Of a stretch of 45,702 bases of DNA, positions 8,287 to 37,048 are shown piece after piece. The DNA is from Anaerolineae bacterium (GTDB lineage: Bacteria; Chloroflexota; Anaerolineae; Aggregatilineales; Ch27). The notes beneath the pieces were generated by a model. The model was not told the origin of the DNA. It was given only the letters and a program-made list of their open reading frames with translations, and did no database searches. The DNA lies in NCBI GenBank assembly GCA_013178165.1, contig JABLXG010000026.1, positions 1 to 45,702 of the forward strand, given 5' to 3'. Both the position numbers and the translations under genes were made by a program. Each line of letters begins with the position of its first letter. Positions within the stretch are counted from its first letter, which is position 1.

Positions 8287-8556
8287 TCAGGCGCCCGCCT
8301 GCAGGGCGGCGATGAGCGCTTCCAGCAGGCGGCGGATCTCGCCCGGCTCGGCATGACGGCCCAGCGCCTTTTTGGAAAAGAGCATCTCGCCATTCACGCT
8401 AAACTCAAAGACGCCCCCTTTGCTGGGAATCAGCTTCCACGAGGCAATGTGCACTTCAAGCTCCCGGAGGCCCAGGATTTCTTCCGTCACCCTGACGGCG
8501 CGCGGCGTGTAGCCTCACAGGGCACAGTATTCAAGCGTGACATCGAGCGACAGCAT
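8287..8556 (-). CDS. SelW/Rdx-family selenoprotein (in-frame TGA as selenocysteine)
   Basis: Read from the ATG at 8556, the frame encodes 89 residues with TGA at codon 14 (8515-8517). The surrounding peptide is EYCALUGY, exactly the CxxU redox motif and following GY of the SelW/SelT/SelH (Rdx) family. Downstream it continues with the conserved GGVFEFSVNGEMLFSKK block (47-63) and a final amphipathic helix, and the length matches SelW proteins (about 87 residues). AAAGGA lies ten bases before the ATG. An annotation that treats TGA as stop would begin at the GTG at 8490 and lose the active site. A hairpin with features of a bacterial SECIS follows the TGA. Members of this family have a thioredoxin-like fold and are thought to act in redox control. 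The substrate is unknown. SelA, SelB, SelC and SelD would have to be encoded elsewhere. Confidence 0.88.
8484..8498 (-). promoter_or_regulatory. Candidate bacterial SECIS hairpin of the SelW-like gene
   Basis: The minus strand reads CCGTCA-GGG-TGACGG, a perfect six-base-pair stem with a GGG loop. The loop starts 22 bases after the TGA at 8515-8517. The general bSECIS model asks for an apical stem-loop about 16-37 bases downstream with a G in the first two loop positions, and both conditions are met. The hairpin lies inside the coding sequence, as in all known bacterial selenoprotein genes. Confidence 0.75.
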
Positions 8557-15662: not shown

Positions 15663-16091
15663 AACGGGCGGTTACCGGCACACGCCGGTATTGTATGCCC
15701 GTTCACGCCCCGCTGCCAGCGCCCTGCCAGCGCCCGCTACCAGCGGCCCGCTGCCAGCGGCCCGCTGCCAGCACCAGGCGCAAACAGAGGCAGGGAATGG
15801 GCAGTGAGGAGGCGTCTTACCTTGGTCCAGCCATATTCAGATAGCCTCTCAGCTCCTCCTATTATCACTGCCGGGTCCTGCCCACCTCCAACTGATCGTT
15901 GCCGGGCTGCGCAGGCCGCGCTATGATCCGGCCCGCCAACAGGAATGAACCATGCGCCGGGGGGCTGGCGGAAGGATAACCCTGACTTTCCCCCGGCTCA
16001 TTTCGTTCTCACGTTGATGTGGTACGATGATCACGGGCGGCGAGGCACGCTGCGCCAGCGATCACAGGAGGCTGTTTGCAGAGAGCAACCA
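15663..16091. other. Gene-less stretch with hairpin and short tandem repeat
   Basis: No gene is supported between the IGPS-like gene and the first TPR gene. The stretch contains a seven-base-pair hairpin TACCGGC-ACAC-GCCGGTA (15673-15690) and a 14-base imperfect tandem repeat of CCCGCTGCCAGCGG (about 15709-15776, three clear units plus degenerate ones). There is also a possible plus-strand promoter, TTCAGA (15836-15841), 18 bases, TATTAT (15860-15865), which would leave a 220-base leader before the TPR gene. Confidence 0.5.
15709..15776. repeat. 14-bp imperfect tandem repeat
   Basis: Units of the form CCCGCTGCCAGCGG recur in near-tandem, with single-base variants such as CCCGCTACCAGCGG. It lies outside coding sequence. 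It may be a simple slippage-derived repeat. Confidence 0.55.
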
Positions 16092-17333
16092 ATGAGACAC
16101 GGTATCCGTATCCAGCGCGACCATAGCACCCTGAGCTTTTCCGGGCGTCGGCGCGGCTTCAGCCCGCTGCTGATCGTCCTGTGGGTGCTTTCGCTGGCCG
16201 TGGTGGCTGTGGTCGTCTGGCGCTTTGACGAGGTACAGCCGCGGGTGCTCTCCCTGGTGCAACCACCGCCGCCGACCGTCTCCGCACCCACGCTGGCCAA
16301 CCGCGCCTTCGAAGCTTACCTGGCTGGAAACCTGGCCGCTGCTGAACAGCAATTCGCCGAAGCGGTGCGCCTGGACCCAACTAACATCGCTTACCTGTAT
16401 GAGTACGGGCGCATCCTGATGCTTAACAACAAACCAGCGGAAGGGCTGGCGATGGCCGAACAGATCATCGCTGCCGCGCCGGGCGATCCACGCGGCTATG
16501 CGCTCAAAACCTACGCGCTGGATAGCCTGGGCCGCGCCGAAGAGGCGATCCCCGTCGGCCTGACCGCTCTCGATCTAAACCCAACCTTTGCCCCGGCCTA
16601 CGCCTATCTCTCCGGCGCGTATCTGTCGCTGGGGCGCTGGCGACAGGCCCAGGAGATGGGCGCGCGAGCGGTGGAACTGGACCCCAACAACATTGATACC
16701 CGGCGCGCCTTCGCCTTCGCCCTGAACTGGACGGGTCGCTACGACTTGGCGGTGGAGCAACTCGAAGCCGCTATCGCCATCCACCCCAACCTGGACTTCC
16801 TGTACTTTGAGCTGGCTGGCGCGTACACCGGCCTCAAGAACGATCCAGCCAAGATCGCCATCTACGAACACGTGCTGGCCATGAACCCGGAAAACACCAA
16901 AGCGATGGTCCGCATGTGCGAGACATACTTTGGGTTACGGGTGGATAACCTGGCCCAGTACTGGTGCGAGCAGGCCCTGGACCGCGATCCCAACGATGCC
17001 CGCGCCTGGAAGCAGGTCGGCATGATCTACTACACCCGCCGCAACTACGAAAGCGCCATCGACGCTTTCGAAACCTGTGTGCGTCTCTCCGGTTCGGAAT
17101 ATATCGAGTGCTGGTATCTGCGCGGGCTGGCTCATTACCGCCTGGATCAGTGCGATCAGGGCGTACCCATTCTGCAGGAGGCGCTCAACTACACCGATTC
17201 GGAGGACATCCGCCGCAACATCCTGCAGGGGCTGTACATGTGCGCTGAAGCTGACGAGCGCTACGACTTCTCGATCATCCCGACCCCTGCCCCGACCGCT
17301 ACGCCCGTGCCCACACCGATCGGAATCTTCTAG
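16092..17333 (+). CDS. Membrane-anchored TPR protein, paralogue 1
   Basis: The 413-residue protein has a basic N-terminus, one membrane segment (about residues 24-43), a Pro-rich linker (PPPPT) and then some eight tetratricopeptide repeats facing the outside, ending in a Pro/Thr tail (PTPAPTATPVPTP) typical of extracytoplasmic linkers. TPR signatures recur, for example AVRLDPTNIAYLYEYGRIL and AIAIHPNLDFLYFELAGAY. TPR arrays bind proteins, and no enzymatic domain is present. It is the first of three consecutive paralogues. The ATG at 16092 has only a weak ribosome site, and a longer frame to 15945 exists but lacks a membrane-protein-like start. Confidence 0.8.
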   Translation: MRHGIRIQRDHSTLSFSGRRRGFSPLLIVLWVLSLAVVAVVVWRFDEVQPRVLSLVQPPPPTVSAPTLANRAFEAYLAGNLAAAEQQFAEAVRLDPTNIAYLYEYGRILMLNNKPAEGLAMAEQIIAAAPGDPRGYALKTYALDSLGRAEEAIPVGLTALDLNPTFAPAYAYLSGAYLSLGRWRQAQEMGARAVELDPNNIDTRRAFAFALNWTGRYDLAVEQLEAAIAIHPNLDFLYFELAGAYTGLKNDPAKIAIYEHVLAMNPENTKAMVRMCETYFGLRVDNLAQYWCEQALDRDPNDARAWKQVGMIYYTRRNYESAIDAFETCVRLSGSEYIECWYLRGLAHYRLDQCDQGVPILQEALNYTDSEDIRRNILQGLYMCAEADERYDFSIIPTPAPTATPVPTPIGIF

Positions 17334-17336
17334 CCC

Positions 17337-18542
17337 ATGTACATCCGTCGTGACCGTTCCCGGCTGCATTTCGGTCACCAGCGCCGGGGCCGGCAGGCCG
17401 GCCTGCTGGCGGCGCTGGCGGTTGTCCTGGCGCTGACCGGACTGGTGGCCTGGCAGTTTGAACGCCTGGAGCGGGAGGTCGCCGCCCTGTTCGGCCCGCC
17501 CGCCACGCCTACGCCCTCCGCGCCGATGGTCGCCCGGCAGGCATACCTGAGCTACGTCAACGGCGACCTGGCCGCTGCCGCGGATGGCTACGCCGCCGCC
17601 CTGGCGATGGAGCCGGATAACGCCGATTACCTCTACGAATACGCCCACTGTCTGCTGCTGCTCAACCGGGGAGAGGAAGGGCTGTCCGCCGCCGAGCGCC
17701 TGGCGGCGCTGGCCCCCGGCGATCCGCGCGGCCAGGCCCTGCAGGTACTGGCTCTCTACCAACTCAACCGTCTGGATGAGGCTATCGCCATCGGCCTGAG
17801 CGTCATCGAGGCACACCCGACCTACGCCGAAACATACGCCTACCTGGCCTGGGCCTACGCTGACATCGGACGCTGGATGCAGGCCGTGCAGATGGGCGAA
17901 CGCGCGGTGGAATTGAACCCGGACAGCGTGGACGCCTACCGCGCTTACGCTTACGCCCTGACCTGGGTCGGCGACCGCGAGAGCGCGATCAAGGCGCTGG
18001 AACGGGCCATTGAATTACACCCGACGCTGGACTTCCTGTACTTTGAAGCGGCGGAGAAATACCGCGCCCTGGAAAACGTCCCGGCAGCGATCGCCGCGTA
18101 CGAACGTGTGCTGGCTATCAAGCCGACCAACACCCGCGCTCTGCTGCGGCTGTGTGAAACGTACTTCAACCTGCGGGAAGACGCCCGCGCCCAGGAATAC
18201 TGTGAGCAGGCGCTGGCCATCGACCCAACTTATGCTGATGCCTGGCGGCAGGTCGGGCTGGTGTACTACCAGCAGGGGCTTTACCAGCGGGCTGTCGATG
18301 CCTTTGAGCAATGCATCGCGTTTGGCTCGGAGAGCATCTTCTGCTGGTACGTACGTGGTCTGGCCTACTACTACCTGGGACGCTGCGATCTGGCCGTCCC
18401 GATCCTGCATGAATCGATGACCCGCACCCAGTCCGACCGGGTGCTGGGCTTCATCCGGGAAGGGTTGCGCCTGTGTAACCAGGACCCCACCCCCCTCCTG
18501 CCGGGCGAAACGCCAGCGGCCACCGAAACCCCGACCGGGTAG
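17337..18542 (+). CDS. Membrane-anchored TPR protein, paralogue 2
   Basis: The 401-residue paralogue starts three bases after the stop of paralogue 1, so the two are translationally linked. The architecture is the same: basic start (MYIRRDRSR), one membrane helix (about 20-40), a PATPTPSAP linker, eight or so TPRs and a Pro/Thr tail. The repeats align one by one with those of paralogue 1 (for example HPTLDFLYFEAAEKYRAL against HPNLDFLYFELAGAY), and the Cys residues near the C-terminal repeats (CETYFNLRED, QYCEQ/EYCEQ, FCWYVRGLA) are shared. This points to tandem duplication. Function is unknown, and a scaffold for an envelope complex is a reasonable inference. Confidence 0.8.
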   Translation: MYIRRDRSRLHFGHQRRGRQAGLLAALAVVLALTGLVAWQFERLEREVAALFGPPATPTPSAPMVARQAYLSYVNGDLAAAADGYAAALAMEPDNADYLYEYAHCLLLLNRGEEGLSAAERLAALAPGDPRGQALQVLALYQLNRLDEAIAIGLSVIEAHPTYAETYAYLAWAYADIGRWMQAVQMGERAVELNPDSVDAYRAYAYALTWVGDRESAIKALERAIELHPTLDFLYFEAAEKYRALENVPAAIAAYERVLAIKPTNTRALLRLCETYFNLREDARAQEYCEQALAIDPTYADAWRQVGLVYYQQGLYQRAVDAFEQCIAFGSESIFCWYVRGLAYYYLGRCDLAVPILHESMTRTQSDRVLGFIREGLRLCNQDPTPLLPGETPAATETPTG

Positions 18543-18591
18543 GCTAAAACCTGTTACAATCAACGCCTGCGCTCGACCAGGCCAGCAACCC

Positions 18592-19893
18592 ATGTACCTG
18601 AGAACACCCAAACGCTACTCCGCCAAACGCCCCAAACGCCACCTGATCAACCTGCGCTGGTGGTGGCTGTACCTGCTGACGCCGATCGTGGTGGTAATCG
18701 GCGCTGGCATCTGGGATCAGCGGGCGATGTTCCAGGGGCCGATTGAGGCGGCGATCTGGGAGCAGATCAACGCTGCCCGCGATTACATCGCCACACAACA
18801 GGCCCCCACGCCGACGCCGACCGATTCGCCGTTCAACTACCTGACGGTGGCCAATGCCGCCTATCAGCGCGGGTCGATGGAGCAGGCCATCGACAACTAT
18901 CGTCTGGCGGCGGCGGGCCTGCCCAACGATGTGGCGCTGCATGTGCGGCTGGCCCACCTGCTGACCACCGCCGGACGTCCAGAGGAGGGCGTTGCTGCCG
19001 CACAGGCAGCGATCAACGCTGATCCTTACAGCGCCGACGCCTGGGCGATCCACGGCATGGCCAACGAGTGGAAGGGGGACTTTGGCAAGGCGCTTTCCAG
19101 CCTTTACCGCGCCCTCGAACTGGATCCGCAAAATGCCGCCGCCTATGCCTTCCTGGCGGAAGCCTACATTGACATGGGCAAGGCTGCCGAAGCGCTGGAA
19201 GCCGCTGAAAAGGCGCTGGAACTGAACCCGCAGGACTTCAATGTCCAGCGCAACTATGGCTACGTGGCGGAATACACCGGCCAGTATGACGTAGCCATGC
19301 AGGCTTACGAGCGCGCCCTGCAACTGGAGCCTTCCCGCACCTATATTGCCTTCAACCTGGTCGATCTCTACCGGCGCGAGGGCGATCCGGAGAGCGCGGT
19401 ACGGTTGTTGCGTGCGATCATCGATCGCAGCCCGGAAAACGCCCAGGCCTATGCCCGCCTGGCCAATATCCTGCTCAGCGACCTGGGCGAACAGGATCAG
19501 GCCCGCGACGCCGCTGAGCGCTGTGTGGCCATCGATCCCACCAGCGTGGCCTGCCTGGGCATCCTGGGATCGCTGCAACTGACCGCCGGGGAATACAACC
19601 TGTGCGCTCGCTCCTTTGACCGGGCCATTGAAGCGGGCAGCACCAATGCCCTGCATTACTATTACGCCGGGATGTGCCACATCGTGATCGATGATTGCGT
19701 CCGGGCGCGTGAAGTGTTACTGCGTGGCCTGGAACTGGCCCGTACCCTCCAGACCCAGACCGACATCCGCGACGCGCTGGCCCAGTGCCAGACGATCGTC
19801 ACCCTGGCTCCGACTCCCACGTTGGAAGGCACACCGCCGGACTACGAGAGCCTTCTGACCGCCACGCCCGAAGCCGGGGAAAGCACGTCCTAG
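18592..19893 (+). CDS. Membrane-anchored TPR protein, paralogue 3
   Basis: The 433-residue protein is the third tandem TPR gene, 49 bases after paralogue 2. It has a basic N-terminus (RTPKRYSAKRPKR), a membrane helix (about residues 20-38), the linker TPTPTDSP, about nine TPRs and a Pro/Thr tail. It is more diverged than the other two but keeps the same order of elements, including the Cys-bearing repeats near the end (YNLCARS, AGMCHIVIDDCV). Its TAG stop overlaps the stop of the convergent SDR gene in a shared CTAG. Confidence 0.8.
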   Translation: MYLRTPKRYSAKRPKRHLINLRWWWLYLLTPIVVVIGAGIWDQRAMFQGPIEAAIWEQINAARDYIATQQAPTPTPTDSPFNYLTVANAAYQRGSMEQAIDNYRLAAAGLPNDVALHVRLAHLLTTAGRPEEGVAAAQAAINADPYSADAWAIHGMANEWKGDFGKALSSLYRALELDPQNAAAYAFLAEAYIDMGKAAEALEAAEKALELNPQDFNVQRNYGYVAEYTGQYDVAMQAYERALQLEPSRTYIAFNLVDLYRREGDPESAVRLLRAIIDRSPENAQAYARLANILLSDLGEQDQARDAAERCVAIDPTSVACLGILGSLQLTAGEYNLCARSFDRAIEAGSTNALHYYYAGMCHIVIDDCVRAREVLLRGLELARTLQTQTDIRDALAQCQTIVTLAPTPTLEGTPPDYESLLTATPEAGESTS

Positions 19894-21306: not shown

Positions 21307-22968
21307 TCACTGCACCAGTTCGTAGCCCGCCGCCGCCCAGCCAGCCGAACCGACCGCCAGGCCACGCACATTGCTGTAGCCGGCCATGGCCAGGGCGTGC
21401 TGAGCCAGCGCCGTGCGGTGCCCCTCGCCGCCGTAGGCCACGATCGCGGCGTCCTTAGCCAGACCTTCCGCCACGAAACTGGCGAAGGCGCGGGTTGGCC
21501 AGTTGATTGCACCGGCGATGTGACCGGCGGCGTACTCATTCGGTTCGCGGGAGTCGATCAGGATGATCTCCTGCTCGGCCAGCGCCGTTGCCAGATCTTC
21601 CGGCGCGATGATGCCCCAGCCCTGCGGCAGAGCGGTGAAATAAGCGTTGACAGTCGTCCACACATCGGGGTCAACCGCCGGGAATGCGCCCGGCGTAGCA
21701 GTGGCCGGTTCGGTGACCTGCTCACCCGTCCAGGCCTTGAGGCCGCCGCGCAGGTTCATGACGTTGGTGTAGCCGAGCATGGTCAGGCCAAGCTGAGCGA
21801 CCGCACCGCGATAGCCAACCCCGCAGTAGACCAGAATCGGTTCGTCGAACTCAGGCAGCAGCGCCAGGCTGGCCGGAACCTCCCGTAACGGGATATTGAC
21901 CGCCCCGGCGATGTGTCCTTCGGCATACTCGTTGGCCTCGCGCACATCCAGGATGAACGCGCCGTCCATCGCCGCGGCGAAGTCAGCTTCGGCCAGAGTG
22001 CCAAAACCAGCCATTGAAGCGATCGTCTGTACCGCCTCAAAGGCCAGCGGCGCGACAACTTCCGCTTCCAGGACGGTGCCTTCCGGCAGTACGACTTCCG
22101 CCGCTGTACCGCCGACAACGGGATACTCCTCAGCAATCCAGCCGGCAATACCGCCCGCCAGGTTGCGCACGTTGTAGCCCAGCATCTGCAGGGCGACCAT
22201 GGCGATCGTGCCACGCCCGCCAACCTTGCAGTAGACCACGATCTCTTTGTCTGCGGGCAACTTGTCCAGGTTGGCGGTCAGCTGGCGGATCGGAATGTGC
22301 ACCGCACCCTCGATGTAGCCCAGTTCGTCCAGTTCAGCCTGCTCACGCACATCCAGCAGGAACAGGTCGGGCTTCTCCGCCAGTTCGCTCCACAGGTCGT
22401 CGGCGCTCACCTGCCCCCACCCCTGCGGCAGCACATTCTTCAGGTAGTTGTCCACCTCTGCCAGCAATGCCGGGTCGAACTCCGCCGGGCCGATCGGCTC
22501 AAACTCCACCGGCTCGGTCGCCACCGGATTACCCGCTTCCTTCCATGCCCCGAAGCCGCCCACCATGTTGCGTACATTGGTGTAGCCCATCATCTGCAGC
22601 ACGGCCATCACAATCGTGCCGCGCGTCCCCTTGGCGCAGTACACCACGATCGGCTCGTCCAGGTCCGCCGGTAGCAGATCAAGCTTGTCGACCAACTCCC
22701 GTACTGGCACATTCACCGCACCGGGAATGTAGCCCTGTTCAGTCCATTCGCTGGCTTCCCGCACATCCAGCAGGAACAGGTCGGGGTTCTCCGCCAGTTC
22801 CGTCGCCAGATCATTGACGCTCACCATCCCGAAGCCCTGCGGCAGGTTGGGAATGTAAGCCTCAACGGCGGCCTGCAGGACACCCACGCCCTGGGCCAGG
22901 ACGGGGGCGATACCGGTCAGCAGGAAGCTGACCAGAACCAGAAGTGTGATCAATCGTTTCGATGCCAT
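21307..22968 (-). CDS. Exported protein with four rhodanese domains
   Basis: The 553-residue protein has a signal peptide (residues 1-27, ending APVLAQG) followed by four rhodanese-like domains. Each has the LLDVRE or equivalent strand and the active-site loop. Domains 1-3 keep the catalytic Cys in VVYCAKGTRG, VVYCKVGGRG and LVYCGVGYRG. Domain 4 reads VAYGGEGHRT and lacks it. Domains 1, 2 and 4 are preceded by a repeated LPQGWG-like helical segment (residues about 41, 175 and 455), which suggests internal duplication. Rhodaneses transfer sulfane sulfur from thiosulfate or persulfides. Located outside the cytoplasm and next to multiheme cytochromes, this one probably handles extracellular sulfur. 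The ATG at 22968 follows AAGGAG at nine bases. Confidence 0.88.
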   Translation of the reverse strand: MASKRLITLLVLVSFLLTGIAPVLAQGVGVLQAAVEAYIPNLPQGFGMVSVNDLATELAENPDLFLLDVREASEWTEQGYIPGAVNVPVRELVDKLDLLPADLDEPIVVYCAKGTRGTIVMAVLQMMGYTNVRNMVGGFGAWKEAGNPVATEPVEFEPIGPAEFDPALLAEVDNYLKNVLPQGWGQVSADDLWSELAEKPDLFLLDVREQAELDELGYIEGAVHIPIRQLTANLDKLPADKEIVVYCKVGGRGTIAMVALQMLGYNVRNLAGGIAGWIAEEYPVVGGTAAEVVLPEGTVLEAEVVAPLAFEAVQTIASMAGFGTLAEADFAAAMDGAFILDVREANEYAEGHIAGAVNIPLREVPASLALLPEFDEPILVYCGVGYRGAVAQLGLTMLGYTNVMNLRGGLKAWTGEQVTEPATATPGAFPAVDPDVWTTVNAYFTALPQGWGIIAPEDLATALAEQEIILIDSREPNEYAAGHIAGAINWPTRAFASFVAEGLAKDAAIVAYGGEGHRTALAQHALAMAGYSNVRGLAVGSAGWAAAGYELVQ

Positions 22969-23103: not shown

Positions 23104-24801
23104 TCATTTGGCCGGTGGTACGTCCAGTGGATCAACCGTCGGCGCGGCAGTTGGCGCAGCAGACGGCACGTCCAGTGGGTCGACGGTCGGCGCAGCAGAC
23201 GGTACGTCCAGCGGGTCGACAGTCGGTGCAGCGGGTGGCACGGCCAATGGATCCACCCCGGCAGGCGGCACGTCCAGCGGATCAGCGGTCGGGGCGGCAG
23301 CCGGCGCGACCGACGGTGCTGCGGTCTCTTCGCCTGGCAGCGGTACGCGGCGGTATTCCTCCGGCATCGGCGGCGCGCCCAGCACGATCACGCCCTGGTT
23401 GGCCGTTAACTCTTCCTCCCGGACTTTGTCCGGCGTCAGAAAGAGCGCGTTGTTGGTGTGGCAGCTTTCACAGCTGGCCGTCTGGGGCGTATTGCGCTGG
23501 ATGTTGTGCGGTGTGGCATACGTCCAGGTTGGCAGGCTGTCAAAGTTGTTCAGGACATCCTCACCATACAGGCGGAAGAGATCCGGATAGGTCGGGACAT
23601 GCCGCAACGGGACATAGCGGTAGGGCCGCTCGGCGCTACGGATCGGGTTGCGCCCGATGTAAAAGCCTATCTCCTCGTGCTGCAGCCGGTAGTAGGCGAT
23701 GTCGTCTTCGGTGCGTTCCAGGTGGCAGTCGTAGCAGTTGATGTAACTGATCGAATGGCAAACCTGGCAGGACAGCACTTCGGTACCGTGCGCTTCGTGA
23801 TAAGGGTTGCCGGAACCAATGCCGACCACGTCCCGGTGGCAGCTTTCGCAGGATGGCCCCTGCGGGCCGTCATAGCGGTGATCCCGGCTGGCGGTTATGG
23901 TGCCGTCTTCAGCGACGGTGACGTAGTCCGTACCGTGCATATCGCCGCCGGTGTGGCAATCGGTGCAAACCATGCGGACCGAACGCAGGTGGACATCAGC
24001 GGCCAGACCCTCATGCGCCCCCGTGTACTCGTTCTTGACCCGGCTGCCATGGCAGGCCGTGCACTGGCGACTCATCGACGGCGTGCGGTTGAAGACATGG
24101 CCGTCGATCAGGCCACCGCCAACGCTGGTCGGCTGGCTGATGTGGCACTGGCCACAGGTGGTGTGGCAGTTCTGGCAGTGATACTCCTGCCCCGCCTCGA
24201 TCGCGGGGTGGTTCTCCGGCATGCTGCGCTGGTAAAGGACGGTATCATACCCGGCCAGGTTGTTGTGCAGGCTGTATGCCTGGAAGGGCGCGATATCCGG
24301 GTGGCATGCCCCGCAGGCAGCCTCCGCATCAACGGACGGATCGCGGACAACGCCCACATGCGCCGCCGCTTTATCGGCCAGGTTCCGCCCGCCATGGCAA
24401 TCGATGCAGGAAATGTAGCCGTGCACTGTGCCGAGCAACGCCTCAGGATCGATCAGGACCTTCTCCCATACCTCCAACGGAGGCACACTCCCCCCTCAGC
24501 CAGAGCCTTCGCTGAGCGAAGGCGGCGCCTCCTCCTCTTCAGCCAGGAGCTGGAGCTGCGCAGCGTCGCTGTGGCAGGCAATGCAATTGGAATCGGGCCG
24601 CGTCTCGGCGGGGAGCAGGGCCACAGCCGGCGCAGCCTGATCAGCCCCGGCAGCTTCCGCCTGGTCGGGGGCAACCTCCGCAGACGGCGCTGGCGTCGGC
24701 GTGGGGGACTGCGCCGCTTCCGCCCGCTGGGACGCACAGCCGGCGGCCACAAGCAGGGCCAGCACAGCCAGGATAAGCACGGTATAGCGTGATCGGTTCA
24801 C
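23104..24801 (-). CDS. 11-heme c-type cytochrome lipoprotein interrupted by an in-frame TGA
   Basis: Read through a TGA at 24496-24498, the frame encodes 565 residues. A GTG at 24801 with GAGGGA upstream opens a lipoprotein signal (LVAAGC lipobox). Then come one CxxCH (CIACH), a Glu-rich linker (LAEEEE...SEGSG), the TGA as codon 102, and on the other side ten more CxxCH motifs (CIDCH, CGACH, CQNCH, CGQCH, CTACH, CTDCH, CESCH, CQVCH, CYDCH and CESCH). The tail is made of PTVDPLDVP repeats. The two halves are in the same frame, and the second half alone has no signal peptide, so it could not receive heme outside the cell. Either TGA is read through (possibly as Sec), or the gene carries a nonsense mutation. 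It probably acts as an extracellular electron carrier. The rhodanese gene follows on the same strand. Confidence 0.75.
23110..23300 (-). repeat. Coding minisatellite, about 36-bp units
   Basis: Copies beginning with GGyACGTCCAG or a close variant on the plus strand start near 23115, 23165, 23201, 23237 and 23267, with spacings of 36, 36 and 30 bases in the regular part. They encode the repeated peptide DPLDVPsAAPTV at the C-terminus of the 11-heme protein. Such tails are usually disordered linkers. Confidence 0.75.
24468..24486 (-). promoter_or_regulatory. SECIS-like hairpin after the cytochrome TGA
   Basis: The minus strand reads GTGCCTCC-GTT-GGAGGTAT, eight pairs including two G-U pairs with a GUU loop. 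The loop starts 17 bases after the TGA at 24496-24498. Distance and the G at the first loop position fit the general bSECIS model. Hairpins of this kind arise often by chance in GC-rich DNA, so this is suggestive only. Confidence 0.35.
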
Positions 24802-25096: not shown

Positions 25097-26023
25097 ATGC
25101 TGGATATCTACGAACTTCAGATTTTTCTGGCTGCGGCGGAAACAGGCAGTTTTTCCGGCGCTGGTCGCCGCCTGCAGATGTCCCAACCAGCGATCAGCAT
25201 GCAGATCCGCTCGCTGGAAAAGCGGCTGGGGGTGGAATTGTTCAGCCGCGCCGGGCGGCACATTCAGCTCACCGAGGCTGGTGAAGCGCTGGTGCCGATG
25301 GCCCGCGAACTGGTCAACCTGTCCATCCGTACCGAAGAGGCTATTGCCTCCCTGCAGGGGGAAGTAGTCGGCCTGCTCAAGGTGGCCTGCAGCACCTCGG
25401 CGGGCAAATATGTCCTGCCCAAACTGATCGCCAGTTTTATCGAGCGTTATCCCCAGGTTCAGGTGGCCTGTGATGTTGGCCCGCGCGGATCATCGATCCG
25501 CCAGCTGCTGGATGGCTCGGCGCACATCGCTATCAGCAGCCTGCGCGAGCCGTACCGCGAGCTGGAATACCGCCCGTTCATCACCGATCCGGTTATCCTG
25601 ATCACGCCGCCGGCGCATCCCTGGGCCAGGCGCGGATCGATCACCGTTGAGGAACTGCTCAACGGGCGCTTCATCGTCCGCGAACCAGATTCCGGCACTC
25701 AGCAGGCCGTGCTGGAAGCGCTGGCCGCTTTCAACCTCGGTCTGGGGGCGCTGAACGTGGTCATGACGCTCGGCAACTCGGAGGCGATCGCCATGGCGGT
25801 GGCCGAGGGCATCGGGGCGGCTTTCATTTCTGAGCGCGTTGCTGCAGAATGGATCAGCACCCACCGTGTGGCCACCGTGTCGATTGAAGGGCTGAACATC
25901 GTCCAGCAACTCTATATGGTTCGCCACGCGCATCGGGCCGCCACCCGTGCGCAGACAGCCTTCTGGGAGCATGTGTACGAGCCGGAAAGCCGGGCTTTGC
26001 TGAGCCGCCCGGCTGCCGGTTAG
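25097..26023 (+). CDS. LysR-family transcriptional regulator
   Basis: The 308-residue protein has the N-terminal LysR winged helix (FLAAAETGSFSGAGRRLQMSQ and SMQIRSLEKRLGVELF, residues 9-50) and a C-terminal two-lobed effector domain with the VGLLKVACSTSAGKYVLPKLI start and the PDSGTQQAV segment. It resembles the CysL/CbbR-like branch. The effector is unknown. It stands between the divergent 11-heme cytochrome gene and the co-oriented cytochrome/FeS/NrfD operon, so it probably controls one or both. The ATG at 25097 gives the normal family N-terminus. AGAGGA is 17 bases upstream, farther than usual, and an out-of-frame ATG at 25081 lies closer to it. Confidence 0.88.
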   Translation: MLDIYELQIFLAAAETGSFSGAGRRLQMSQPAISMQIRSLEKRLGVELFSRAGRHIQLTEAGEALVPMARELVNLSIRTEEAIASLQGEVVGLLKVACSTSAGKYVLPKLIASFIERYPQVQVACDVGPRGSSIRQLLDGSAHIAISSLREPYRELEYRPFITDPVILITPPAHPWARRGSITVEELLNGRFIVREPDSGTQQAVLEALAAFNLGLGALNVVMTLGNSEAIAMAVAEGIGAAFISERVAAEWISTHRVATVSIEGLNIVQQLYMVRHAHRAATRAQTAFWEHVYEPESRALLSRPAAG

Positions 26024-26090: not shown

Positions 26091-27086
26091 ATGAGACACA
26101 CATGGCACAGGGTCCAGGGGGGACCACTCATCATTTTCAGTCTGACCGTCTTGCTGGTGGTGCTGCTGGGCCTGCTGGCCGGGCAACCTGTCCGGGCCGA
26201 ACCGCCCAGGCAGGGCGGGCCAGAAGATCATTCGGGGCAGCGTTGCGCGGATTGCCACCTGGACTATAAGGACCTGTGGGCTACCGGCGCGCATGCCATC
26301 GCCTATGAGCGCGAATCATTTCAGGCCGCCTGGGCTGCCACCAACAACAACCCGGATTGTCTGCTCTGCCATACCACTAACTACCAGCCGCATTCCGGCC
26401 AGTACCTGCAGGAAAACGTCCAGTGCGAGGCTTGCCATGGCCTGACGCCCGCCGACCACCCGCCGGCGGATTTTGTGATCAACCGCACGCCAAGCGCCTG
26501 CGGAAACTGCCATACCGTAACCTTTGACGAGTGGCGGCGCAGCCCGCACGCCTTCACCGAGGATATGGGCACGGTAGCCTGCTCTACCTGCCACAACCCG
26601 CACGGTCAGAACCTGCGCTTCGATACGACCAACCAGCTCTGCCTGAACTGCCACAAATCGGCGCCCAATACCTATGTCCACCTGACGCACAACGAGGTCG
26701 ACTTCGCCAACGTGGAAGTCACCTGTGGCAGCTGCCACATGTACCGTTCCCGCGATGACGAGCAGCATCGCATCCCCGACCACACCATGACCGTCGAGAC
26801 CGTGCCCTGCACCGAATGCCACGAGGCGCTTTCCATCCAGGGCAATGTGCCGCTGCTCGTTGATGTTGACACGGCGCTGGCTGAGGAGCGCGACCGGTTG
26901 CGCGTGCAGGTCGCCGAGTTGCAGGCCGCGCTGGAAGAGAAGGCGGAAACCCCGGCCACGACTGGTACGAATTTCGTGCAACTGACCCAGGGCCTGATCG
27001 TCGGGCTGGGCCTGGGGCTGACCCTGTTCTGGGTCCTGAGCCGCCGCGAGAACAATAACAACGGCAACAACCGGAAGAAGTCCTGA
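26091..27086 (+). CDS. Membrane-bound octaheme c-type cytochrome
   Basis: The 331-residue protein has an N-terminal signal/anchor (about residues 11-36), eight CxxCH heme-binding motifs (CADCH at 52-56, then CLLCH, CEACH, CGNCH, CSTCH, CLNCH, CGSCH and CTECH), a short coiled coil (EERDRLRVQVAELQAALEEK) and a C-terminal membrane helix (about 300-320) followed by a basic/Asn-rich tail. The domain resembles the DmsE/MtrA-type cytochromes and the subunit that accompanies NrfD-type quinol oxidoreductases. It probably passes electrons between the NrfD/FeS module and an extracytoplasmic partner such as the 11-heme lipoprotein. GAGGACAGGCA precedes the ATG. First gene of a three-gene operon. Confidence 0.87.
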   Translation: MRHTWHRVQGGPLIIFSLTVLLVVLLGLLAGQPVRAEPPRQGGPEDHSGQRCADCHLDYKDLWATGAHAIAYERESFQAAWAATNNNPDCLLCHTTNYQPHSGQYLQENVQCEACHGLTPADHPPADFVINRTPSACGNCHTVTFDEWRRSPHAFTEDMGTVACSTCHNPHGQNLRFDTTNQLCLNCHKSAPNTYVHLTHNEVDFANVEVTCGSCHMYRSRDDEQHRIPDHTMTVETVPCTECHEALSIQGNVPLLVDVDTALAEERDRLRVQVAELQAALEEKAETPATTGTNFVQLTQGLIVGLGLGLTLFWVLSRRENNNNGNNRKKS

Positions 27087-27098
27087 CGGGAGCTACCT

Positions 27099-27920
27099 AT
27101 GAGCGACAACACCCCCACCGTCATCAGCCGCCGCGACCTGATCAAGCTCATGATCGGGTCGGGCGTCTCCGTCGCCGCCGCCGTCGCCCTGGCCGGGCCG
27201 CTCACCCCGCTTGTCGAACAACTGGCCAGCGGGCTGGAACGCCGCGCCACCGCCGAAAGCCCCCGCCAGCATCCGCGCTGGGGGATGGTCATCGACCTGA
27301 GCAAGTGCATCGGCTGCGAGTACTGCGTCTATGCCTGCCAGGCTACCAATGACACCCGCGATGACATGCGCTGGAACATCCACCTGGTGGACGAAACGCC
27401 CACCGGTAAGACGTTCCACATCACCCGTCCATGCCTGCACTGCCAGAATGCGCCGTGCGTGCGGGTCTGCCCGGTCGCGGCGACCTACAACCGGGCAGAC
27501 GGGCTGGTGGTGATGGACTACAACAAGTGCATTGGCTGCCGCTACTGCCAGGCCGCCTGCCCCTACGGCGCGCGTGTCTTCAACTGGGAGGATCGCGGCG
27601 ACGAGCCGAATCCGTATGTTCCCTTCTGGGGCACGCCGGAAGTCCCCCGCCGGCCCCGTGGCGTGGTGGAAAAGTGCACCTTCTGCATCCATCGCATTGA
27701 CGCCGGCGTAGCCCAGGGGCTGGTGCCCGGCATCGACCGCGAGGCCACGCCCGCCTGTGTCAACGCCTGCCCGGTTGGCGCCCGCGCCTTTGGCGACCTC
27801 AACGATCCCGAAAGTCCGGTCTCCCGCCTGATCCTCACCCGGCCCACCCTGCGCCTGCGCGAGGATCTGGGCACCGAAGCCAATGTCTACTACATTCCGC
27901 CGGAGGGGATGGCGCTATGA
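27099..27920 (+). CDS. Tat-exported four-cluster ferredoxin subunit (PsrB/NrfC/DmsB-like)
   Basis: The 273-residue iron-sulfur protein begins with a Tat signal (SRRDLIKLM at 10-18, then a hydrophobic stretch). It has four Cys clusters suited to [4Fe-4S] centres: CIGCEYCVYAC, CLHCQNAPCVRVCP, CIGCRYCQAACPYG, and CTFC with CVNACP. This is the electron-relay subunit of membrane-bound complexes such as polysulfide reductase, Nrf, Hme/Dsr and alternative complex III, linking an NrfD-type quinone site to other redox centres on the outer side. It starts 12 bases after the octaheme gene, and its stop overlaps the start of the NrfD gene (ATGA). Confidence 0.9.
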   Translation: MSDNTPTVISRRDLIKLMIGSGVSVAAAVALAGPLTPLVEQLASGLERRATAESPRQHPRWGMVIDLSKCIGCEYCVYACQATNDTRDDMRWNIHLVDETPTGKTFHITRPCLHCQNAPCVRVCPVAATYNRADGLVVMDYNKCIGCRYCQAACPYGARVFNWEDRGDEPNPYVPFWGTPEVPRRPRGVVEKCTFCIHRIDAGVAQGLVPGIDREATPACVNACPVGARAFGDLNDPESPVSRLILTRPTLRLREDLGTEANVYYIPPEGMAL

Positions 27921-29188
27921 CCGCTCTCGTGAACTTCGCCCGCCGCTCACCTCTGTATACCGCCTGGATCATCTTCCTGGCATTGCTGCTGGGGATCGGG
28001 GTCTTTTCCATCCTGACCGTGCTGGCGCAGGGCCTGGGGATGACCAACCTGACCAATCAGTTGCCCTGGGGGCTGTGGATCACAGTCGATCTGTCTTCGA
28101 TTGCGCTGGGGGCCGGGGCCTTCACCCTCTCGGCGGCGGTGTACGTGTTCGGCCTCAAGCGGTACGAGGCCATCGCCCGCGCCGCCGTGCTGATCGGCCT
28201 GCTGGGTTACACCGGGGCGATGCTGGCCCTGCTGGTGGACATCGGTCGCCCGGATCGCTTCTATCACCCGCTGCTGTTCTGGAATGTGCACTCGGTGCTG
28301 TGGGAAATCACGCTGTGCGTCATGTTCTACACCACCGTGCTGGTGATGGAAGTGTTGCCGATCGTGATCGAGAGCACCCCGTTGCGCCAGAATCGCTGGC
28401 TGCTGGGGTTGGCCCACCTGCTCCACCGGATCATGCCGGTGGCGGCGCTGTTCGGCATGGCCCTTTCCCTGCTGCACCAGTCCTCGCTGGGCGCGACATA
28501 CGGCGTGTTGACTGCCCGCCCGGTATGGTTCTCTCCCAGCGCACCGGTGTTGTTCATCCTCTCGGCGGTCGCCGCCGGAATCGGGGCCACAATCGCTTTC
28601 ACGGTAGTCACGGAAGCCCTGCAAAAGCGCCAGCTTGTCCCGCCAGATGTCCTCAACAATGTGGCCGTGCTGGCCGGGGTAGCCGCCGCGGCCTACCTGT
28701 ACCTGAAGGTATGGAGCTGGGCAGCCACCAACTACTATTCGCACTCGCCCGCCCTGGAACATGATCTGGAGCTGCTGGGCGAGAACACGCCCTACGGCTT
28801 CACCTTCTGGTGGTTCGAGGTGTTACTGGGCGCGCTGGTGCCGATGGTGATCTACCTGTGGCCGCGCACCCGCCGCAGCAAACTGGCCCTCTTTGTGGCC
28901 GGAGCGCTGGGCATCCTGGGCGTGATCGTCTACCGCTGGAACATGACGCTGGCCGGGTTTGTCGTGCCGATGGACTGGTCACCGGGCGTGCTGCGCAACC
29001 TGGAGGTGGCCACCTACACACCCGCACCCATCGAGTGGGGCGTGGCCATTGGCATCGTCGCTTACTGGCTGCTGGCCTGGAGCCTGGCGGCGCGTTTCCT
29101 GCATCTCTACCCGGAAGCTGAAGGCGCAAAGCGTGTAACCGGGCATGCGCCTGCCGAAGCGCACGAGGCCGCCGCACCCGCCCGCTGA
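27917..29188 (+). CDS. NrfD/PsrC-type quinone-binding membrane subunit
   Basis: The 423-residue membrane protein has about ten transmembrane helices and matches the NrfD/PsrC family: an N-terminal segment reading WGLWITVDLSSIALGAGAF, then PLLFWNVHSVLWEI, the SLLHQSSLGA motif and a C-terminal pair of helices. It holds the quinone/quinol site of its complex. The ATG overlaps the FeS gene stop, so the three operon genes are produced together. No molybdopterin catalytic subunit lies in the window, which sets this apart from polysulfide or DMSO reductases and suggests a quinol:cytochrome oxidoreductase-type function. Confidence 0.9.
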   Translation: MTALVNFARRSPLYTAWIIFLALLLGIGVFSILTVLAQGLGMTNLTNQLPWGLWITVDLSSIALGAGAFTLSAAVYVFGLKRYEAIARAAVLIGLLGYTGAMLALLVDIGRPDRFYHPLLFWNVHSVLWEITLCVMFYTTVLVMEVLPIVIESTPLRQNRWLLGLAHLLHRIMPVAALFGMALSLLHQSSLGATYGVLTARPVWFSPSAPVLFILSAVAAGIGATIAFTVVTEALQKRQLVPPDVLNNVAVLAGVAAAAYLYLKVWSWAATNYYSHSPALEHDLELLGENTPYGFTFWWFEVLLGALVPMVIYLWPRTRRSKLALFVAGALGILGVIVYRWNMTLAGFVVPMDWSPGVLRNLEVATYTPAPIEWGVAIGIVAYWLLAWSLAARFLHLYPEAEGAKRVTGHAPAEAHEAAAPAR

Positions 29189-33619: not shown

Positions 33620-33770
33620 GGCGCGGAAGTACCGCCGCTCGCGGCCTGTCGTCTCGCCGCCACAGCCACAGGCGAGGCTTGCCTGCCCCGGCGGATTTGT
33701 GCTTGCCGCCCGTCCAAATCTGCGCTAATGTAGCCAGCTATCCTCGCCATCTACCGTGGATTCCTGGGCC

Positions 33771-34673
33771 ATGATCAGCGGTACAGTCTTCGACATCAGG
33801 CGCTTCTCCCTTCACGATGGGCCGGGCATCCGTACCACGGTCTTCTTCAAGGGCTGCAGCCTGCGCTGCTGGTGGTGCCATAACCCGGAAAGCCAGCGTC
33901 CGCGCCCGGAACTCATCTTGCGCCCGGAACGATGCATCGCCTGCGGGGCCTGCGTCGAAGCCTGTCCTGTCGGGGCGATCCGGGCCAACGGCCAGGGCTA
34001 TGTCACCGACCGCGCCCTCTGTGACGACTGCGGGGCGTGCGTCGCTGCCTGCTACGCCGACGCGCGGGAGATGGTAGGCCGCACCATGACTGTCGCTGAG
34101 GTCATGGCCGAAGTTCTGCGCGATACCGCCTTTTACGAGGGGGAAGGCGGGGTGACCGTTTCCGGCGGGGAGCCGCTGCTCCAGCCGGAATTCCTGCTGG
34201 CGCTGCTGCAAGCCTGCAAAGCCCGCGATCTGCATACCGCGCTGGACACCTGCGGCTATGCTCCCCCAGAGGCGCTTGAGCGCGTCCGCGAGTATGTTGA
34301 TCTCTTCCTCTACGACCTCAAGCTAATGGATAGCGAGCGCCACCGCCGCTTCACCGGTGCAGACAACGAACTCATTCTGCACAACCTGGAACGGTTGGCG
34401 GCTGCCGGGAGCCGCATCATCATCCGCGTCCCGGTCATCCCCGGCCTGAACGACGATCCCGCTGACATCGCCGCGATCGGGGAATATGTCAGCGCGCTGC
34501 CGGCCGTCAAGCAGGTTGACCTGCTGCCTTACCACCGCATGGGGGCCGATAAATACGCCCGCCTGGCCCGCCCTGATCCACTGCCGCCGACTGACCCGCC
34601 CCCGGCAGCGCACATGGCCGAATTGCAACGCCGGCTGGAGGCCTGCGGCCTGGCCGTCAAAATAGGAGGATGA
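33771..34673 (+). CDS. Glycyl radical enzyme activating protein (radical SAM)
   Basis: The 300-residue activase generates the glycyl radical on its partner enzyme by SAM cleavage. It starts ISGTVFDIRRFSLHDGPGIRTTVF, followed by the radical-SAM cluster CSLRCWWC (Cx3Cx2C). Two ferredoxin-type [4Fe-4S] motifs (CIACGACVEAC and CDDCGACVAAC) mark the larger class of activases that serve dehydratase and decarboxylase-type enzymes rather than PFL itself. The SGGEPLLQ SAM-binding motif is present. The start is the ATG at 33771. A GTG five codons upstream (33756) is in frame. The stop overlaps the region just before the glycyl radical enzyme gene, with AGGAGG for that gene inside the activase end. Confidence 0.92.
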   Translation: MISGTVFDIRRFSLHDGPGIRTTVFFKGCSLRCWWCHNPESQRPRPELILRPERCIACGACVEACPVGAIRANGQGYVTDRALCDDCGACVAACYADAREMVGRTMTVAEVMAEVLRDTAFYEGEGGVTVSGGEPLLQPEFLLALLQACKARDLHTALDTCGYAPPEALERVREYVDLFLYDLKLMDSERHRRFTGADNELILHNLERLAAAGSRIIIRVPVIPGLNDDPADIAAIGEYVSALPAVKQVDLLPYHRMGADKYARLARPDPLPPTDPPPAAHMAELQRRLEACGLAVKIGG

Positions 34674-34678
34674 CGCCT

Positions 34679-37048
34679 ATGCCCATGACCGAACGTGTCG
34701 CCCGGCTCCGCCAGCGCAGCCTGGAAGCCCGGCCCACCCTCTCCCCGGAGCGCGCCCTGCTGATGACCCGCTTCTACCAGCAGGAGACCGAGCGGTGCTC
34801 CGTCCCGGTACAGCGGGCGCGAGCTTTCGCCTACCTGCTGGAGCACAAGGCCATCTGCATCCAGGACGACGAGCTGATTGTCGGGGAAAAGGGTCCAGCC
34901 CCCAAAGCCACCCCCACCTACCCGGAGCTATGCTGCCATTCGCTGGCCGACCTAGATATCCTTAACACGCGGGAGAAAATCTCGTTCGCCGTCAGGCCGG
35001 AGACCTTCCAGCTTTACGCGGATGAGATCATCCCCTTCTGGCGGGGCAAAACCATGCGGGAGATGATCCTGCGGGAGATGACGCCGGAATGGATCGCCGC
35101 GTATGAGGCGGGCGTCTTCACCGAGTTCATGGAGCAACGCTCTCCCGGCCACACCGTGCTGGACGACAAGATTTATCACAAAGGCATGCTGGACTTCATC
35201 GCCGAGATCGACGCTCGCCTGGCCAGCCTGGATTACCTGAATGACCCGCAGGCCTACGCCCGCCAGGAGCAACTCAAGGCGATGCGCATCGCCGCGCAGG
35301 CGCTGATTCGCTTTGCGGAGCGGCACGCCGAACGCGCCCGCGAGCTGGCCGCGCAGACCGCCGATCTGCGCCGCAAGCAGGAACTGGAGCGCATCGCTGC
35401 CGTCTGCGAGCATGTTCCGGCTCATCCCCCCCGCGATTTCTGGGAGGCGCTGCAATACTACTGGTTTGTGCATCTGGGCGTGACCACCGAACTCAATCCG
35501 TGGGACGCTTTCAACCCCGGACGGCTTGACCAGCACCTGGAGCCTTTCTACCGGCAGGGCCTGGCCGACGGCACACTCACCCGCGAGATGGCTGAGGAGT
35601 TGCTGCACTGCTTCTGGATCAAGTTCAATAACCAGCCCGCCCCGCCCAAGGTCGGCGTGACCGCTGCCGAGAGCAGCACCTATACCGACTTCGCCCAGAT
35701 CAACCTGGGCGGCCTGAAGCCCGACGGCTCCGATGGCGTCAACGAAGTCACCTACCTGCTGCTGGATGTGATCGAGGAGATGCGCCTGCTGCAGCCCAGT
35801 TCGTCGATCCAGGTCAGCAAGAAAAGCCCAGATCGCTTCATCAAGCGGGCCGCGCGGATCATCCGCACCGGCTTCGGGCAGCCGTCGATCTTCAACACCG
35901 ATGCTGTCATTCAGGAGATGATCCGCGCCGGGAAGTCGATCATCGACGCCCGCAACGGTGGCACCAGCGGCTGCGTGGAAACCGGCGCCTTTGGCAAAGA
36001 GAACTACAACCTGACCGGTTACTTCAACCTGCCCAAAGTGCTGGAGATCACCCTGCATAACGGCGTCGACCCGCGTACGGGAAAGCGCATCGGACTGGAA
36101 ACCGGCGACCCGCGCCACTTCACCAGCTTTGAAGAGCTTTTCGCCGCCTTTGAGCGCCAGCTCCGTTACTTCATCGACATCAAGATTCGCGGCAATAACG
36201 TTATCGAGCGGCTGTACGCCACGTATATGCCCGCACCGTTCCTCTCCCTGCTAATCGACGACTGCATCGCCACCGGCAAGGACTACCACGATGGCGGGGC
36301 GCGCTACAACACCTCGTACATCCAGGGTGTAGGGCTGGGGTCGATCACCGATTCGCTGGCCGCCCTCAAATACCATGTCTTCGAGCAGCGCACGTTCTCG
36401 ATGGACGCCCTGCTGGCCATCCTGGCCGAGGACTTTGAAGGCCATCAGCGCGAGCGGCAGCTCCTGCTCAACCGCACACCCAAGTACGGCAACGATGACG
36501 ACTACGCCGATGCGATTATGGTGCGCGTGTTTGAGGCCTATTTCAACGCCATTGACGGGCGGCCCAACACCCGGGGCGGGCGCTATTGCATCGACCTGCT
36601 GCCCACCACCTGTCACGTTTACTTCGGCTCCGTGATCGGCGCGTTGCCGGATGGCCGCCGGGCCTGGCAGCCGCTTTCAGAAGGCATCTCGCCGGTACAG
36701 GGCATGGACCGCCACGGCCCGACCGCCGTGCTGCGTTCCGCGGCCAAGATGGATCACGTGCGCACCGGCGGCACACTGCTCAACCAGCGCTTCACGCCAC
36801 AGGTGCTGGCCAGCGATGACGACCTAGACAAACTGGTGCAGCTGGTGCGGACGTACTTCCGGATGGATGGGCACCACATTCAGTTCAACGTGGTCGATTC
36901 GGCCACACTGCGGGACGCCCAGCAGCACCCGGAGCAGTACCGCGACCTGATCGTGCGTGTCGCCGGCTACAGCGACTATTTCTGCGATCTGGGCCGGGCG
37001 CTGCAGGACGAGATCATCGCCCGTACCGCCCATGAGGCGCTGGCCTGA
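34679..37048 (+). CDS. Glycyl radical enzyme (dehydratase-type, HypD-like)
   Basis: The 789-residue enzyme has the PFL-like barrel with the thiyl cysteine in TSGCVETGAFGKE (Cys432, followed by Glu434) and the C-terminal glycyl radical loop RVAGYSDYF (Gly763). The GCVE motif with Glu two residues after Cys marks the eliminating branch (diol dehydratases, hydroxyproline dehydratase, choline lyase) rather than PFL. The stretch ENYNLTGYFNLPKVLEITL looks closest, from memory, to trans-4-hydroxy-L-proline dehydratase and its uncharacterised relatives. No P5C reductase, microcompartment or substrate-specific partner is next to it. The ATG at 34679 follows AGGAGG by nine bases. Earlier in-frame ATG 34670 would touch it. 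It requires strictly anaerobic conditions. Confidence 0.88.
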   Translation: MPMTERVARLRQRSLEARPTLSPERALLMTRFYQQETERCSVPVQRARAFAYLLEHKAICIQDDELIVGEKGPAPKATPTYPELCCHSLADLDILNTREKISFAVRPETFQLYADEIIPFWRGKTMREMILREMTPEWIAAYEAGVFTEFMEQRSPGHTVLDDKIYHKGMLDFIAEIDARLASLDYLNDPQAYARQEQLKAMRIAAQALIRFAERHAERARELAAQTADLRRKQELERIAAVCEHVPAHPPRDFWEALQYYWFVHLGVTTELNPWDAFNPGRLDQHLEPFYRQGLADGTLTREMAEELLHCFWIKFNNQPAPPKVGVTAAESSTYTDFAQINLGGLKPDGSDGVNEVTYLLLDVIEEMRLLQPSSSIQVSKKSPDRFIKRAARIIRTGFGQPSIFNTDAVIQEMIRAGKSIIDARNGGTSGCVETGAFGKENYNLTGYFNLPKVLEITLHNGVDPRTGKRIGLETGDPRHFTSFEELFAAFERQLRYFIDIKIRGNNVIERLYATYMPAPFLSLLIDDCIATGKDYHDGGARYNTSYIQGVGLGSITDSLAALKYHVFEQRTFSMDALLAILAEDFEGHQRERQLLLNRTPKYGNDDDYADAIMVRVFEAYFNAIDGRPNTRGGRYCIDLLPTTCHVYFGSVIGALPDGRRAWQPLSEGISPVQGMDRHGPTAVLRSAAKMDHVRTGGTLLNQRFTPQVLASDDDLDKLVQLVRTYFRMDGHHIQFNVVDSATLRDAQQHPEQYRDLIVRVAGYSDYFCDLGRALQDEIIARTAHEALA

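Follow-up and report, generated by a model that had tools for sequence, protein, structure and literature searches.

A predicted selenocysteine in a conserved family of 11-heme cytochromes from Chloroflexota

Known selenocysteine-containing cytochromes and the Chloroflexota gene

Among cytochromes containing selenocysteine (Sec), the nearest known system to the gene described here is the ext cluster of Geobacter. ExtKL of Geobacter sulfurreducens (GSU2937-2936; NF040886) is likewise a multiheme c-type cytochrome, for which one Sec is predicted and whose gene is divided between two open reading frames (ORFs). It is encoded in a conserved cluster near a rhodanese, ExtH, and has been proposed to play a role in the reduction of selenite and tellurite, which requires the neighboring gene extI (PMC5877670). 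A 2026 review lists ExtKL as a Sec cytochrome together with a Sec-containing octaheme cytochrome of the tetrathionate reductase family, as well as the GSU2204 family CXXCH protein/MtrB-PioB beta-barrel selenoprotein (NF041027), an outer-membrane beta barrel that also carries CXXCH (PMC13188914). Here, we describe a gene encoding an 11-heme lipoprotein cytochrome c at positions 23104-24801 (minus strand) of a 45,702-nucleotide stretch of an Anaerolineae genome (contig JABLXG010000026.1; hereafter, the window), in which an in-frame TGA occupies codon 102. Judged by sequence comparison, this UGA is very probably decoded as Sec, and the gene represents an apparently unreported selenoprotein family, not a broken gene. 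The first-pass annotation of this DNA had suggested Sec and was not aware of any description of Sec in a multiheme cytochrome; the former suggestion is strongly supported by the conserved TGA, a covarying hairpin, and the Sec machinery, and the latter statement is corrected by ExtKL (PMC13188914, PMC5877670) and by the octaheme protein of the tetrathionate reductase family (PMC13188914).

The gene is read as a single ORF across the TGA, from a GTG start at 24801 to the terminal TGA at 23106-23104. A lipobox (..LLVAAGC) and the first CxxCH motif (CIACH, residues 73-77) precede codon 102 (24496-24498, minus strand; SEGSG-U-GGSVPP), and ten more CxxCH motifs follow it in the same frame, which agrees with the arrangement outlined in the first-pass annotation; the C-terminal tail is Pro-rich. 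The product thus combines 11 CxxCH motifs with a lipobox export signal, as expected of a multiheme c-type cytochrome, and the read-through protein matches the Pfam family Cytochrome_C7 (PF14522, E 2.5e-13), with MtrC/F-like matches too. Without readthrough, the second ORF (23104-24486, 460 amino acids) has no signal peptide, as had also been pointed out. The Sec is predicted to fall in a Gly-rich loop between heme motifs 1 and 2.

The cytochrome differs from ExtKL in the number of hemes (11 versus 5), in its host (Chloroflexota versus Geobacteraceae), and in its partners, which comprise a LysR regulator, NrfD, an iron-sulfur (FeS) protein, and a tandem rhodanese in Chloroflexota, and a porin, cytochrome b, and a Rieske protein in the case of ExtKL. 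The ExtKL model NF040886 (cut-off 250 bits) gave no match to the window protein up to E 10 and no locus above the cut-off in 19 genomes bearing the gene, and the window cytochrome has no NCBIfam match to NF041027. The best structural neighbor of the cytochrome model is the octaheme tetrathionate reductase (OTR) family (TIGR04315; Shewanella 1sp3), whose members have 8 hemes. The AlphaFold model (68 sequences; mean pLDDT 89.3) gave no significant match in a Foldseek search against the PDB, and VIA-align related this heme-free model to Shewanella OTR 1sp3 with Z 8.9 over 270 of 436 residues (rmsd 4.6), well ahead of the next-best match at Z 3.6. In OTR relatives, a non-heme Cys is invariant in the interval between the first two heme motifs (A4 position 64); the Sec of the cytochrome falls in this interval too, if not necessarily at the equivalent position. 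The equivalent of this free Cys in Shewanella OTR presumably lies at the active site. At the cytochrome locus, TIGR04315 scored at most 19 bits (genomes G053 and G060; cut-off 375), whereas true OTRs in the same genomes scored above 540; true OTR homologs (L170-L175) are encoded elsewhere in 6 of 19 genomes bearing the Sec cytochrome. Profile-profile comparison was discarded as evidence of homology to OTR because two control multiheme families scored alike, the OTR match being hardly above that to unrelated multiheme proteins.

The in-frame TGA and the hairpin behind it

In a GTDB collection, 446 stretches encode a relative of the cytochrome, and codons were counted in the best 80 of them, all from Chloroflexota. 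The position of codon 102 is TGA in 78 of these 80, the remaining two having TGG (L087) and TTT (L092). In a second set of relatives (n=61), all 25 gene copies that span codon 102 carry the in-frame TGA within GxG-U-GG. Among 396 genomes drawn evenly from the class Anaerolineae (class sample), 77 possess the cytochrome gene, with TGA in 69 of the 77. Altogether, 97 distinct sequences, drawn from independent assemblies, share the identical in-frame TGA, and the carriers include the isolate Thermanaerothrix daxensis (L099). The protein is conserved on both sides of the TGA, including the SxGxG peptide before it. One locus (L155; G671:C10) has two nearby related multiheme genes, one with the Sec TGA and the other without it; the TGA-less copy bears a long C-terminal multiheme extension, which suggests a Sec-free paralog.

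Shortly behind the TGA lies a hairpin (24468-24486, minus strand) with a 6-bp stem (24484-24479 paired with 24475-24470) and a GUU loop (24478-24476). Selenocysteine insertion sequences of bacteria (bSECIS) typically place their loop about 16-37 nt after the UGA, with G at loop position 1 or 2. The hairpin loop begins 17 nt past the TGA, which confirms the spacing and loop noted at first pass; it reads GUU, GGU, or GAU in nearly all relatives, and its first base is G in 97% of them. The geometry thus agrees with a bSECIS in spacing and in the GNU loop, and is accompanied by covariation and synonymous constraint. In the window, CCUCC-GUU-GGAGG is extended by two additional outer pairs beyond the conserved 6-bp stem. 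The folding energy of -10.9 kcal/mol (z -1.70) is modest alone, and the element becomes decisive when relatives are compared. A scan of the window against Rfam at gathering thresholds gave no match.

Over 47 distinct sequences, the 6-bp stem keeps 96.5% of its pairs. Its covariation score is 0.276, compared to 0.082 for shuffled sequences (0 of 500 reaching the observed value) and at most 0.045 with the partner strand slid. One pair is swapped between C-G and G-C at 24:20, another alternates between G-C and A-U, G-U, or C-G, and the innermost between C-G and A-U. Codon usage points to the same bases: when the 179 columns whose amino acid is conserved but open to synonymous variation are ranked by codon bias, the top four are +4 (GTG), +6 (CCG), +7 (TTG, 57/57), and +8 (GAG, 75/75), all of which belong to the hairpin. 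These codons diverge from background codon usage by 1.15 to 2.26 bits, compared to a mean of 0.11 (sd 0.17) elsewhere, and the Glu codon at +11, by contrast, is divided 50/50 between GAA and GAG. Of six copies without TGA, only the TGG copy L087 retains all six pairs; the other five hold 2-5 of 6. On this comparative evidence, the bases behind the TGA specify an RNA element. In the L087 copy, TGG (at 8310) replaces the TGA and the complete hairpin is identical to that of the TGA-bearing relative L110; Sec may have been lost recently here, or the assembly may be wrong.

Selenocysteine machinery and competing explanations

The genome from which the window derives encodes SelA (C23:82942-84264, 545 bits), SelB (C21:28340-30196, 353 bits), SelD (C32:61473-62408), which itself contains a TGA, and tRNA-Sec (C46:183-277, 73.6 bits), as well as a formate dehydrogenase, FdhA, with a TGA. 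The window also holds a SelW/Rdx-like selenoprotein gene of the CxxU type (8287-8556, minus strand; EYCALU, TGA 8517-8515; PF10262, E 3e-14), which bears out the first-pass mention of another selenoprotein and is presumably the one that was meant. In the class sample, SelB was found in 63 of 69 TGA-bearing genomes and SelA in 5 of the remaining 6, so that 68 of 69 carriers have at least one of them, in line with the check that the first-pass annotation had proposed. Neither protein was found in 1 of 69 TGA-bearing genomes (G712, 67% complete), compared with 51 of all 396 sampled (Fisher p about 6e-4, from hand-read counts of phylogenetically non-independent genomes). Six relatives (G014, G022, G037, G040, G050, and G056) encode SelB, SelA, or tRNA-Sec no more than about 13 kb from the cytochrome; on G022:C2, for example, tRNA-Sec is at 148945, SelB at 149092-150918, SelA at 150948-152276, and the cytochrome at 155740. 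The argument from G494, taken as a SelB-less genome that had lost the TGA, was dropped because G494 has SelA.

A competing explanation that keeps the full-length protein is programmed readthrough of the TGA by a near-cognate tRNA, such as that for Trp, which would yield a short one-heme lipoprotein and a long 11-heme form with no selenium. The TGG of L087, the fact that the position is never Cys, and the ability of a hairpin behind a stop codon to promote readthrough are compatible with it. The stop codon at this site, however, is always TGA and never TAG or TAA, the TGA is associated with the Sec machinery and physically linked to it in the six relatives, and the hairpin, whose 17-nt spacing and G-first loop suit a bSECIS, has decayed in most non-TGA copies; in addition, the divergent LysR regulator is nearest to a selenium-metabolism LysR family. 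We therefore regard Sec-free readthrough as improbable.

It is still less likely, indeed very unlikely, that translation truly ends at the TGA and that a distinct downstream gene begins by re-initiation at the conserved GTG of codon +4, which is kept in 73 of 77 sequences and preceded by a G-rich stretch. All 77 sequences have Gly at codons +1 and +2, and the third bases of these codons vary freely; the glycines are therefore kept as protein and not as a ribosome-binding site, which argues that translation continues past the TGA. The GTG abuts and partly enters the covarying stem, and the second ORF would lack an export signal, yet c-type heme attachment occurs outside the cytoplasm. The conserved SxGxG peptide ahead of the TGA is likewise at odds with re-initiation, and from these sequence patterns, translation is taken to pass the TGA. 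The main alternative named at first pass, a nonsense mutation or a sequencing (or assembly) error leaving a pseudogene, would look alike in a single genome and is excluded because the TGA is conserved in scores of independent genomes (the 97 distinct sequences), an isolate included.

Several points weigh against decoding as Sec or against the function proposed below. SelA and SelB were not found in the TGA-bearing metagenome-assembled genomes G042 (81% complete, relatives set) and G712, and the counts of both proteins are hand-read from listings of genomes that share ancestry. Cys homologs at the Sec position are a usual hallmark of selenoproteins, although not required. The first-pass annotation had expected a possible Cys at codon 102 and held that non-Cys homologs would speak against Sec; no Cys homolog was found in the 80 best GTDB loci or in the no-stop copies examined, nearly all homologs having TGA. 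The rare non-TGA copies, in which Trp, Phe, Leu, or His stands at the site or nothing aligns there, do count against Sec, but are outweighed by the conserved TGA and the RNA element. The missing Cys homologs are unusual and leave a small chance that another residue is inserted. The fold match in the PDB is moderate, the Sec and the full-length protein are read from sequence, and the function is drawn from the gene neighborhood and analogy. The conserved UGA, the RNA element, translation across the UGA, the neighborhood, and the Sec machinery are supported by sequence evidence; selenium incorporation, the substrate, and the direction of electron flow are what we infer.

Gene neighborhood, proposed function, and significance

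Directly downstream of the cytochrome gene is a gene encoding an exported protein with four rhodanese domains (21307-22968, minus strand; PF00581 four times), whose loop motifs (VVYCAK, VVYCKV, LVYCGV, and VAYGGE) have Cys in three domains and Gly in one. Of the 69 loci whose sequence extends far enough, 66 have a tandem rhodanese behind the cytochrome in the same orientation, with a median ORF gap of 54 bases; four PF00581 domains were seen in the proteins of the window and of L079. On the other side, a divergent LysR regulator (25097-26023, plus strand) has a selenium-metabolism LysR as its best NCBIfam match, below the cut-off; the same family was best in 7 of 7 orthologs tested and above the cut-off in 1 of 7. 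It is followed on the plus strand by an octaheme cytochrome c whose hydrophobic C-terminal segment is a likely membrane anchor (26091-27086), a DsrO-like 4Fe-4S protein (27099-27920; NF045797, 215.5 bits, cut-off 200), and an NrfD/QrcD-like membrane protein supported by Pfam and NCBIfam matches, probably the quinone-interacting subunit (27917-29188). These genes lie upstream, usually divergently, in 55 of 72 (LysR), 45 of 70 (octaheme cytochrome), 39 of 63 (DsrO-like FeS protein), and 33 of 56 (NrfD/QrcD-like protein) loci. Elsewhere in the window, translations inspected by eye indicate three successive related tetratricopeptide-repeat-like membrane proteins (15945-19893, plus strand) and a glycyl-radical activating enzyme followed by a pyruvate-formate-lyase-like glycyl radical enzyme (33756-37048, plus strand).

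In the mechanism we propose, SelB and tRNA-Sec would insert Sec at UGA codon 102, directed by the downstream hairpin acting as a bSECIS, and the product would be an exported, lipid-anchored 11-heme cytochrome whose Sec sits in a Gly-rich loop. The genes for the cytochrome and the tandem-rhodanese protein form a conserved two-gene unit, and the LysR/octaheme cytochrome/FeS/NrfD module probably links the cytochrome to the menaquinone pool. The selenolate would attack a sulfane-sulfur or chalcogen substrate, electrons from the hemes would release the product, and the sulfur or selenium atom would be delivered or accepted by the rhodanese domains. By analogy, the substrate could be sulfane sulfur (polysulfide, tetrathionate, or thiosulfate) or selenite/tellurite, an assignment to which we give somewhat less than an even chance. 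More tentative still is the overall picture of a multiheme reductase in which a catalytic selenolate, wired directly to or ligating a c-type heme and placed in the interval that holds the free Cys of OTR, cooperates with an extracytoplasmic tandem rhodanese in the respiration of sulfane sulfur or of selenium/tellurium oxyanions, with Sec lacking a Cys substitute. The cytochrome may work like ExtKL, although it is no member of that family by the tests made.

No NCBIfam (release 20) model scored above its cut-off in a scan of five family members, the 119 prokaryotic selenoprotein families inventoried in 2026 include no such family among their cytochromes (PMC13188914), and the literature on Sec and multiheme proteins in Chloroflexi yielded nothing on point, a prior mention by Haft and Tolstoy (2025) or Haft and Gwadz (2023) being possible. 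The cytochrome would add a widespread family to the known selenoproteins, given that 446 stretches of a single genome collection encode relatives. Searches for Cys/Sec pairs would miss it because no Cys homologs were found, and ordinary annotation loses its signal peptide and first heme. The cultured T. daxensis carries the gene, which therefore makes it directly testable. That a Sec cytochrome is paired with a rhodanese both in Chloroflexota and in the case of ExtKL/ExtH points to a chemistry shared by the two lineages.
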